From Pirellulales bacterium (GTDB lineage: Bacteria; Planctomycetota; Planctomycetia; Pirellulales; JALHPA01): a stretch of 64,000 nt of DNA. The first letter of the stretch is position 1; the number at the start of each line of letters is the position of its first letter. The stretch spans positions 1-64,000 of the forward strand of contig JANRLT010000067.1 of NCBI GenBank assembly GCA_033762255.1. Direction: 5' to 3'. The position numbers and the translations under genes are program-made. A model generated the notes under the pieces. The model was given only the letters and a program-made list of their open reading frames with translations, was not told the DNA's origin and ran no database searches. Shown here piece after piece: positions 46,254 to 51,555 of this stretch.

Positions 46254-46529
46254 ATGCAACTGGCCACGGTTATCGGACACGCGACAGCCACCCTCAAGCA
46301 TCCTTCGATGCATGGGTGGAAGCTATTGCTGGTCCAACCTTTTATGAAGGATGGCCAGACACCGGATGGAGATGTACTCTTGGCGGTGGACCATTTGGGA
46401 GCGGGGCGCGGGGAACGAGTGATTATTACCAGCGACGGGGCGGGGACCCGAGCCTTGATGAAATCCGACACCACTCCCGTCCGGTGGAGTGTCACGGGGA
46501 TCGCCGATCAAGCAAGCGGCGAAAATTAA
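46254..46529 (+). CDS. BMC-P (EutN/CcmL) vertex protein, second of three
   Basis: A 91-residue EutN/CcmL-fold protein: MQLATVIGHATATLKHPSMHGWKLLLVQPF, then LLAVDHLGAGRGERVIITSDG and VRWSVTGIADQ. The AV-D-LGAG-GE core is the family's. It is divergent from the other two copies, with no Shine-Dalgarno site and a low-complexity leader. The next gene starts 22 bases after its stop. It may form vertices alone or mix with the others (inference). Confidence 0.92.
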   Translation: MQLATVIGHATATLKHPSMHGWKLLLVQPFMKDGQTPDGDVLLAVDHLGAGRGERVIITSDGAGTRALMKSDTTPVRWSVTGIADQASGEN

Positions 46530-46551: not shown

Positions 46552-47226
46552 ATGAATCCAACCGAGAGTCAAATCGATGCGATTGTCGCCGAAGTGCTGC
46601 GACGGCTGCGCGTCGACACGTCCGGAGTGGCGTCGGGCGGTATGACCGGGGAAGTACAACTCACGGCCAAGGTCATTGGGCTGGCGGATGTGGCGGTATT
46701 TGCCGGTAAAGCCGTCACCCTGCGGGTGGCAACCGGGGCCATTGTCACGCCCGCCGCGCGCGATTGGCTGCGGGAAAAAGAGATTTTGCTGATCAAGGAA
46801 CCAGCGAAGTTAAACAATAAAAACGAGCCAACCGCAAACCAGCGTCGCATCGCCGTGCCCAAACCAAGCACCATCGTTTGGGCGGATGTCCGGCCAACCA
46901 CGGCTAGCGCGGCGGTGCTGCGAAAGTTGCGCGACAGCGGGTCCACCGTGCAGCAAATTGCCCGCACGGGTCAGTCGACCATGGTGGCGGAGGTGGCGGA
47001 ACAAGTGGCGGGGCATGGTTTCAGGGGGGTGGTGCTGACCGGTGAACCGTGGAGTGCGGTAATCGGGGCTAATCGCCGCCAGAGTGTGCAGGCCGTGTGG
47101 TGTCGAGATCAAAGGGAAATACACGACGCCCAACGGACGGTGGAGGTCAACTGTTTGATCATTGACCACGCGCGGCAAACGCAGTTTGGATTGTGGAATA
47201 TTCTGCGTCCGTTTGTCGAGCGCTAG
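46552..47226 (+). CDS. RpiB-like luminal protein of unknown role, with encapsulation peptide
   Basis: About 224 residues from the ATG at 46552. Residues 3-22 (PTESQIDAIVAEVLRRLRV) form an amphipathic helix like the targeting peptides of the aldehyde dehydrogenase and the aldolase; a flexible stretch follows. The C-terminal 110 residues align in pattern with the second half of ribose-5-phosphate isomerase B: VAEVAEQVAGHGFRGVVLTGEP, then SAVIGANRRQSVQAVWCRD and NCLIIDHAR. The Cys of RpiB's CGTG loop is replaced by TGEP and the catalytic-pocket EHN by VEV, so isomerase activity looks lost. It lies between two BMC-P genes. Function is unknown; a luminal scaffold or ligand-binding cargo is inference. 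Confidence 0.7.
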   Translation: MNPTESQIDAIVAEVLRRLRVDTSGVASGGMTGEVQLTAKVIGLADVAVFAGKAVTLRVATGAIVTPAARDWLREKEILLIKEPAKLNNKNEPTANQRRIAVPKPSTIVWADVRPTTASAAVLRKLRDSGSTVQQIARTGQSTMVAEVAEQVAGHGFRGVVLTGEPWSAVIGANRRQSVQAVWCRDQREIHDAQRTVEVNCLIIDHARQTQFGLWNILRPFVER

Positions 47227-47420: not shown

Positions 47421-47711
47421 ATGCGTATCGGCAAAGTTATCGGCACCGTCACGCTTAATCGCCAGCATCCGGCGATGACCGGGGCGCGGTACAAACTTGT
47501 TGTGCCGCAGTCGCTGGCGAATTTAGCGGGGGATAACATGTCCCCGGCGGAGGAATTGACCGTGTATGACGATTTGGGGGCGGGGGAGGGGAGTATGATC
47601 GCCTTTAGCGAAGGGGGAGAGGCGGCCCAGCCGTTTCGGCCCGTTTTTAAGCCCGTCGATGCGTACTGCGCGGCGCTGTTAGATCAAATTGTAATTTATC
47701 CCGCGACCTGA
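47421..47711 (+). CDS. BMC-P (EutN/CcmL) vertex protein, third of three
   Basis: A 96-residue EutN/CcmL-fold protein with MRIGKVIGTVTLNRQHPAMTGARYKLVVPQ, then LTVYDDLGAGEGSMIAFSEGG and VDAYCAALLDQI. It keeps the DLGAGEGS core and ends in a short beta strand. A G-poor leader of about 40 bases with no Shine-Dalgarno site precedes the ATG. The aldolase gene follows 77 bases later. Confidence 0.93.
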   Translation: MRIGKVIGTVTLNRQHPAMTGARYKLVVPQSLANLAGDNMSPAEELTVYDDLGAGEGSMIAFSEGGEAAQPFRPVFKPVDAYCAALLDQIVIYPAT

Positions 47712-50241: not shown

Positions 50242-51555
50242 ATGCAAAAAACCCTTGACGCCAAATTGGCTGAAATTCACGCCGATCCGCACGGTTCGCG
50301 GGCGTTCATTTTGGCCGACGCCAAGGACGCCGACATGGCCTTTGGCATGGGGGCGCCGGGCCTCTCGCCCGAGCAGCACGCCGGGGAGGTCCGGTTTCGC
50401 ACGTTGGCGCAGTATCGCGACCAAATCCGCCAGATTATTCAGCAGGGGCTAGTGGATATCATGCTGATGTCGGCTAGCACCAGCGCGCAGCTCACGTTGA
50501 TCGAAGGGTTATTCGACCATAGTCCCATCACGCCCGCTGGTCGGGCCAATGATGCCACCGATGTCTTTGTGGTGCGGGGACAAAACTACCTGGCACAGCC
50601 CGCCCGGCCGTTCCGCTCGGCCGCGCTCGATCATTTGCAGTGCGGGCACCTGGACTGCGAGCCCCAAGAGCGCGTGCGCGGGGCAAACCTGGGCCTGTAT
50701 AGCGTCACTTTTAATAACCGCCTCGAGGAGGATTTGCACACGCTTGAGCAATACAAGCTGTTCCGCGAAGAGGCGGAACGCAAGGGCTTTCGGCATTTTC
50801 TGGAGGTCTTTGATCCCAATGCCCCGACCGCATTAACAGCCGATACAATACCCCCATTTATTAATGACCACATCGCCCGCACGCTGGCGGGGGTCGCGCC
50901 AGCGGGTCGGCCCGTGTTTCTCAAGATTGTGTATCATGGTCCCCGCGCAATGGAGGAACTCGTCGCTTATGATCCGCACTTGGTCGTGGGCATCCTGGGG
51001 GGAAGCGCGGGGACGACCTATGACGCGTTTAAAATGCTGGCCGAGGCTAAGAAATACGGCGCGCGGGCGGCGCTGTACGGGCGTAAAATCAACCAAGCCG
51101 AGAACCAGTTAGCCTTTATTGAGTTTCTAAAGCTGCTGGCCGACGGACTGATCACCGCGGAAGAGGCGGTAAAAGCCTATCATGCGGTCTTAGCCAAATT
51201 GGGCATTCAGCCACACCGTAAATTAGCGGATGACTTGACTCTGCAAACCGCGGCGATGAGTTACGGCGGCATCCCCCAGGTAAGCGTACCTGCTTTGCCG
51301 TCGGCCATGCAATCAGCCTCCCCCCCGGATAAAAAACAGGCATCCCCGGGGGATTGCGGCTGTGGCGGGACAGTCCCCGCGGCATGTGCCTGCTCCGGGC
51401 ACGCCCATGATGATGCCCCACAGACAAAAGGGCAAAAACCGGCCAGCCAAAAAGCCGCGGCGTCCGCGGGCCAATCATCCCCGCGACCGCTAACAACCGC
51501 TGAGAAACTGGCCGCGAATCAGGCGAAACGGGACCGCATTTGGGGACGTATATAG
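50242..51555 (+). CDS. Class I aldolase-fold protein with a Cys/His-rich C-terminal tail
   Basis: A 437-residue protein without a named family that I recognise. Residues about 20-340 look like a TIM barrel of the FBA-I/DhnA/DeoC group. FILADAKDADMAFG lies near the start, a Lys sits in VFLKIVYHGP at the position expected for a Schiff-base strand, and GILGGSAGTTYDAF and YGRKINQAEN match the phosphate-binding end. After residue 360 comes a Pro/Ala-rich stretch with two Cys clusters (DCGCGG and CACSGHAHDD), then a basic helix ([20 protein letters not shown]). It is the last plus-strand gene of the locus, after a repeat-filled gap. Aldolase activity is inference. Confidence 0.7.
   Translation: MQKTLDAKLAEIHADPHGSRAFILADAKDADMAFGMGAPGLSPEQHAGEVRFRTLAQYRDQIRQIIQQGLVDIMLMSASTSAQLTLIEGLFDHSPITPAGRANDATDVFVVRGQNYLAQPARPFRSAALDHLQCGHLDCEPQERVRGANLGLYSVTFNNRLEEDLHTLEQYKLFREEAERKGFRHFLEVFDPNAPTALTADTIPPFINDHIARTLAGVAPAGRPVFLKIVYHGPRAMEELVAYDPHLVVGILGGSAGTTYDAFKMLAEAKKYGARAALYGRKINQAENQLAFIEFLKLLADGLITAEEAVKAYHAVLAKLGIQPHRKLADDLTLQTAAMSYGGIPQVSVPALPSAMQSASPPDKKQASPGDCGCGGTVPAACACSGHAHDDAPQTKGQKPASQKAAASAGQSSPRPLTTAEKLAANQAKRDRIWGRI

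Follow-up and report, generated by a model that had tools for sequence, protein, structure and literature searches.

PvmL, a candidate shell-cargo linker derived from an RpiB-like enzyme in planctomycete microcompartment loci

Introduction

How the shell of a metabolosome is joined to its enzyme core is an open question outside the Eut and Pdu systems. In Salmonella, EutQ lacking residues 9-41 is found off the shell and still with the cargo, whereas deletion of residues 62-99, which bind the cargo helices, has the reverse effect, and the C-terminal cupin domain of EutQ is dispensable for assembly (PMC12487888). PduM, which carries an N-terminal targeting helix, connects core and shell, and its loss partly separates the two (PMC9132943, PMC12108088); no sequence homologue of PduM is said to be known from compartments other than Pdu (PMC12108088).

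The window analyzed here, a 64,000-nucleotide stretch of contig JANRLT010000067.1 from a Pirellulales bacterium, contains a microcompartment locus in which an open reading frame (ORF) lies between two genes for BMC-P vertex proteins. The original prediction described its product as an RpiB-like cargo with a targeting helix and an apparently lost active site. What would such a protein do at this place?

Results

The ORF (positions 46552-47226 of the forward strand, ATG at 46552, stop codon TAG at 47224-47226) encodes 224 amino acids and is separated from the stop codon of the upstream BMC-P gene by 22 bp (Table 1). The genes of the locus are arranged in the order DeoR, PduL, two BMC-H, acetate kinase, BMC-P, aldehyde dehydrogenase, BMC-P, the ORF, BMC-P, class II aldolase, and lactate/malate dehydrogenase. 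With DeoR, PduL, BMC-H, AckA, BMC-P, AldDH, class II aldolase, and LDH in a single cluster, this is, judged by gene content, a complete planctomycete fucose/rhamnose (PVM) microcompartment locus. Both BMC-H genes of the genome lie within it, there being no others in the genome, and the locus showed no BMC-T gene. From the published cluster order pvmABDEGHIJKLMNO (PMC11958385) and the names of PvmB, G, J, and O, which were identified in PMC6620236, we infer that the ORF is pvmL, a gene position that is already known. In Planctopirus limnophila, a laboratory strain for which there are genetic tools, rhamnose induces the pvm locus.

Table 1. Features of the pvmL region in the window (residue numbers are those of the 224-amino-acid protein)
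Feature	Position	Strand	Remarks
Aldehyde dehydrogenase with N-terminal targeting helix	44702..46159	+	
Upstream BMC-P vertex gene	46254..46529	+	PF03319, E = 2.6e-23
pvmL-position gene: helix, ITP module, and apparently inactive RpiB-like domain	46552..47226	+	224 aa; orthologue at the same place in 83/84 readable PVM loci
Encapsulation-peptide-like amphipathic helix, residues 4-21, containing ESQIDAIVAEVLRRL	46561..46614	+	AlphaFold helix 5-23; conserved columns
ITP module, residues 34-83	46651..46800	+	beta-alpha-beta-alpha-beta; T66-P67 invariant; matches EutQ/EutT N-termini and PduM C-terminus
Apparently inactive RpiB-like domain, residues 107-224, without C-terminal phosphate-binding tail	46870..47223	+	
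T163, at the place of catalytic Cys66 of RpiB	47038..47040	+	Column alignment
A173-N174-R175, RpiB fold residues retained in PvmL (A-N-K/R)	47068..47076	+	86-94% conserved in PvmL; A and N at least 95% in RpiB
T196-V197, aligned with His99-Asn100 (EHN motif)	47137..47142	+	Column alignment
Downstream BMC-P vertex gene	47421..47711	+	PF03319, E = 3.7e-15
Class II aldolase with C-terminal targeting helix	47774..48775	+	

Farther downstream, after the dehydrogenase, the window encodes a 437-amino-acid protein (50242-51552) that has no Pfam match and contains a Cys/His-rich stretch (CGCGGTVPAACACSGHAH). Since the corresponding gene of another PVM locus, L085, is also followed by a homologue (phmmer, 2e-183), this protein looks like an uncharacterized member of the PVM cluster.

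Orthologues of PvmL were collected from 80 named planctomycete loci retrieved with an aldolase query, to which whole-genome searches added more. Among the 84 PVM loci in which both flanking BMC-P genes were readable, 83 carry a PvmL orthologue between them. Identity to the window protein is 19-30% over 73 members; T66 and P67 are invariant, V12, V15, A169, R175, A181, and N200 are at least 90% conserved, and further conserved motifs lie around residues 140-141, 163-175, and 205-206. For close pairs, the mean dN/dS was approximately 0.23 over the whole gene and approximately 0.17 over the C-terminal domain, and the RpiB-like domain (mean dN of 0.129 versus dS of 0.76) is the most constrained part of PvmL among close relatives. 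Such purifying selection indicates that pvmL is a working gene, and together with its retention across PVM loci it led us to reject a pseudogene.

Several loci deserve separate mention. PvmL is present in L070, L075, and L084, where in the last of these it runs on into BMC-P3. A complete PVM locus without pvmL, in which 57 bp separate the two BMC-P genes, was found in a metagenome assembly (L085:5602-5659). Another metagenome assembly encodes the targeting helix and the last third of the RpiB-like domain without the module that we call ITP below (L066:4814-5152), which may be an artefact. The orthologues of L024, L044, L054, and others end in a Cys/His tail (e.g., SGCGCKSHAH), possibly a metal site, which the window protein lacks.

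The RpiB likeness of the C-terminal half is weak in the single sequence and solid once the family is used. The Pfam model LacAB_rpiB (PF02502) scored 19.4 bits (E = 0.0011), below its gathering threshold of 24.7, and a phmmer search of the single PvmL protein against the PDB gave no match; a profile of the 73 orthologues, on the other hand, finds solved RpiBs with a best E value of 7.5e-8. The AlphaFold model computed from the 73-member alignment (mean pLDDT of 88) has an alpha/beta domain at residues 107-224 (pLDDT of about 96), with flexible stretches between the helix and the ITP module and between the ITP module and this domain. The leading Foldseek matches of the model are all RpiB/LacA-B structures (best, 2vvr; E = 4.5e-7, rmsd of 2.0), which bears out the fold named by the original prediction.

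We then compared the active-site columns of PvmL with those of 22 canonical and 19 microcompartment RpiBs. In RpiB numbering, PvmL has lost Asp-His (8-9), Asp-Tyr-Pro (42-44), the catalytic Cys with the glycine loop (66-71), His99-Asn100, and the Arg133/Arg137 tail; the replacement of the Cys loop and of the EHN motif had been predicted, and the loss of the arginine tail comes in addition. These catalytic and phosphate-binding residues are absent from the window protein and essentially absent across the 73 orthologues. What PvmL keeps, Ala76, Asn77, Lys/Arg78, Ala84, and Asn103, are taken to be fold residues. PvmL thus shares with RpiB the predicted fold and the residues of that fold; it differs in lacking the active-site and phosphate-binding residues and in falling below the Pfam cut-off. 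PvmL is almost certainly an RpiB-derived, non-catalytic cargo. An isomerase that the genome needs was rejected as an explanation, two intact RpiBs being encoded elsewhere in it.

A changed active site, with which an encapsulated PvmL would act on L-rhamnulose/L-fuculose or a lactaldehyde intermediate, was considered as well, given that the domain is constrained and that relatives of RpiB act on several sugars. It is, however, very unlikely. The orthologue alignment contains no conserved acid/base set in place of the lost residues (the T163 position is occupied by T, A, or S and the T196 position by E, Q, D, or A), the N, R, and A that are conserved occur in RpiB too, as residues of the fold, and there are loci without the RpiB-like domain altogether.

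These are the PVM loci L165 and L078, which encode a helix and an ITP module only (118 and 87 amino acids, respectively); in both, the next BMC-P gene follows directly, leaving no space for an RpiB domain. The inactive domain can therefore be lost, and, because these two loci keep only the helix and the ITP module, those would be the working part of PvmL. The same variants bear on a sensor role, one of the two main rivals of the linker reading given below, in which the RpiB fold of the encapsulated protein would still bind a sugar phosphate or CoA metabolite and regulate an enzyme, the helix and the ITP module merely delivering it. The strong constraint on the domain and its new conserved motifs speak for such a sensor; yet His99, Arg133, Arg137, and the glycine loop, which hold phosphate in RpiB, are gone, and two loci manage without the domain, so that we consider this role improbable. 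Of the functions first proposed for the pseudoenzyme (scaffold, ligand binding, or control), the non-catalytic nature stands, ligand binding of the RpiB type is unlikely because both phosphate-binding arginines and the loop are lost, and the tie to the RpiB half gives way to evidence that points to the helix and the ITP module.

At the N-terminus, AlphaFold predicts a helix at residues 5-23 followed by a low-confidence linker (residues 25-31), the hydrophobic moment of the helix lies in the top 2% of internal 15-mers, and its conserved columns are I8, I11, V12, V15, L16, and L19. The pattern of this helix matches the N-termini of AldDH and PduL and the C-terminus of the aldolase, and its family profile matches the N-terminus of EutC. 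It thus resembles an encapsulation peptide, a terminal amphipathic helix of approximately 15 to 20 residues on a flexible linker. These features agree with the predicted likeness to the peptides on the aldehyde dehydrogenase and the aldolase and support the further suggestion that PvmL is probably a cargo in the lumen of the shell. The helix profile found no encapsulation-type helix in residues 62-99 of EutQ, which leaves room for analogy at most between the cargo-binding segment of EutQ and its counterpart in PvmL.

Between the helix and the RpiB-like domain lies a separate conserved module of 50 residues (34-83), which the original prediction had overlooked and which we named ITP after its I-T-P motif. 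It matches the N-termini of EutQ and EutT (hhalign E = 4.8e-8, probability of 95%; an HMM match to EutT and EutQ of E. coli was also obtained), aligning with residues 3-45 of EutQ, and the shell-binding segment of EutQ (residues 9-41) falls inside this match. The module also matches the C-terminal ends of the PduM and TIGR02536 models; PduM models match PvmL orthologues with E values down to 2.6e-5, and a small Cys-rich ITP protein (L160) bridges the EutQ N-terminus and the PduM C-terminus. By analogy with EutQ, the ITP-type module of PvmL may have a shell-binding role. We found no report of a module common to EutQ, PduM, EutT, and PVM/SPU proteins in the openly accessible literature searched. 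With the ITP module alone, Foldseek matched no solved structure (nothing at E below 0.1); a slight similarity to the domain of pyruvate dehydrogenase E2 that binds E3/E1 did not reach significance and was set aside. As an observation apart, residues 6-92 of E. coli EutQ (L151:18306-19004) match the N-terminus of the EutA model NF007991 (NCBIfam; 1.6e-9), and some EutA entries may thus carry the EutQ linker region.

The module is found almost solely in genomes that have BMC-P genes. In a census of 246 planctomycete genomes, ITP was present in 64, and BMC-P genes in 63 of these 64 versus 20 of the 182 genomes without it. About 18 of the 64 are, by their hits, PVM genomes, the type from which the profile was built; with these excluded, 45 of 46 ITP genomes still have BMC-P genes. 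PvmL is the sole clear ITP protein of the window's genome. Elsewhere, matches confined to the module led to proteins in which its partner is triosephosphate isomerase, an ACT domain, or a Cys-rich tail, and 11 of 14 stretches examined had shell genes within at most about 5 kb. Triosephosphate isomerases with an N-terminal ITP module are encoded at L159:2116-3027 and L164:495-1394, and small proteins made of ITP and an ACT domain at L152-L156, L158, and L161-L163, most of them adjoining BMC-P/BMC-H genes.

That BMC loci also encode enzymes and small proteins (Cys-rich or ACT) with the module, and that one locus lacks the gene, would fit the other main rival as well, a mere docking tag: the helix and the ITP module would hold a leftover protein in the shell, where it would add bulk or mild stability and link nothing in particular. 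Near-universal retention at a single place and purifying selection argue against this reading, which we likewise regard as unlikely.

The order of helix, ITP module, and RpiB is not peculiar to PvmL. It recurs in 19 non-PVM loci with an RpiB whose active site is largely intact, and in 14 of them BMC-P genes directly adjoin the gene. Intact RpiBs of other BMC loci thus sit just as PvmL does, and the place between two vertex genes, which had been read as a hint of a non-catalytic role, is not reserved for pseudoenzymes. In annotated non-PVM examples, the next genes encode a DeoC aldolase with an N-terminal helix and a nucleoside phosphorylase, a setting that fits the SPU type (PMC4207490, PMC8217296). 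"SPU-like" loci of Latescibacteria combine a class II aldolase with an RpiB-like protein (PMC4207490). SPU-type RpiBs share with PvmL the same three parts in the same order and the neighborhood of BMC-P genes; unlike PvmL, they retain DH, DYPD, the glycine loop, HN, and the Arg tail. All 19 microcompartment RpiBs (L129-L150, e.g., L143:6644-7396) carry Asp in place of the catalytic Cys66 and keep the other active-site residues; the isomerase reaction may use another base in these proteins.

The shared order and position suggest that PvmL is an SPU-type isomerase after loss of catalysis. In the RpiB-domain tree, PvmL forms a single clade (100/99) on long branches, and for this reason the tree does not fix its exact origin; grouping PvmL with the SPU RpiBs is allowed (p-AU of 0.35), which does not make them its nearest relatives. 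Position alone would also be compatible with descent in the reverse direction, and that PvmL came from the SPU type is what we infer.

Discussion

Our preferred reading, which we hold to be probable, is that PvmL is an enzyme-derived linker between shell and cargo, the linking function being argued from analogy with EutQ and PduM. Its ancestor would have been an RpiB-type isomerase that already carried the targeting helix and the ITP module, as in SPU-type loci, and that after losing catalysis came to serve as a linker. The helix of PvmL would join those of AldDH, PduL, and the aldolase in the enzyme core, and the ITP module would grip the shell from inside, like the matching segment of EutQ. 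The dead RpiB fold would be a constrained body, probably for dimerization or spacing (compare the EutQ cupin, which serves dimerization), that can be lost.

The parallel with EutQ is close and has limits. EutQ also has an ITP module (residues 3-45), ties shell to cargo without being a shell protein, and bears an extra C-terminal domain that assembly does not need (PMC12487888), and the helix-plus-ITP proteins of L165 and L078 are a parallel to this dispensable cupin. The C-terminal domain of EutQ, however, is a cupin acetate kinase and that of PvmL an inactive RpiB; neither Pfam nor Foldseek matched a cupin domain in PvmL, the RpiB fold being found instead. The cargo-binding helices of EutQ follow the module, whereas the targeting helix of PvmL precedes it, and EutQ binds EutM and EutL, that is, BMC-H and BMC-T. 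Judged from sequence, PvmL belongs neither to the EutQ cupin family nor to the RpiB enzymes. PduM likewise combines an N-terminal targeting helix with an ITP-like module at the opposite end and is a non-enzymatic link between core and shell (PMC9132943, PMC12108088); it differs in having no RpiB domain and the order helix-middle-ITP, and its likeness to PvmL is confined to the module.

Several observations weigh against this reading. Proteins that look active carry ITP as well (SPU RpiB, triosephosphate isomerase, and EutT), so the module may be an all-purpose tag for docking, which alone would not make a linker. The RpiB-like domain, as the most constrained part among close relatives, does something where it is kept. 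L085 lacks the gene and L066 the ITP module. The domain tree does not place PvmL nearest to the SPU RpiBs, and the shell partners of EutQ include a BMC-T protein, a class not seen in the window's locus.

More tentatively, ITP may be a shell-docking domain common to metabolosome proteins (EutQ, EutT, PduM, SPU enzymes, and PvmL), and a PVM enzyme that lost its active site, and in two lineages its whole catalytic fold, may have become a dedicated assembly linker, possibly at the vertices whose genes adjoin it. What appears to be new here is a probable metabolosome linker made from a dead enzyme. PvmL is a candidate for the PVM linker, tied by sequence to EutQ and PduM, and the linker idea can be put directly to the test with the minimal forms of 87 and 118 residues that occur in nature. 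Carried by many unrelated proteins, such a docking module would, moreover, be a new handle for loading microcompartments.
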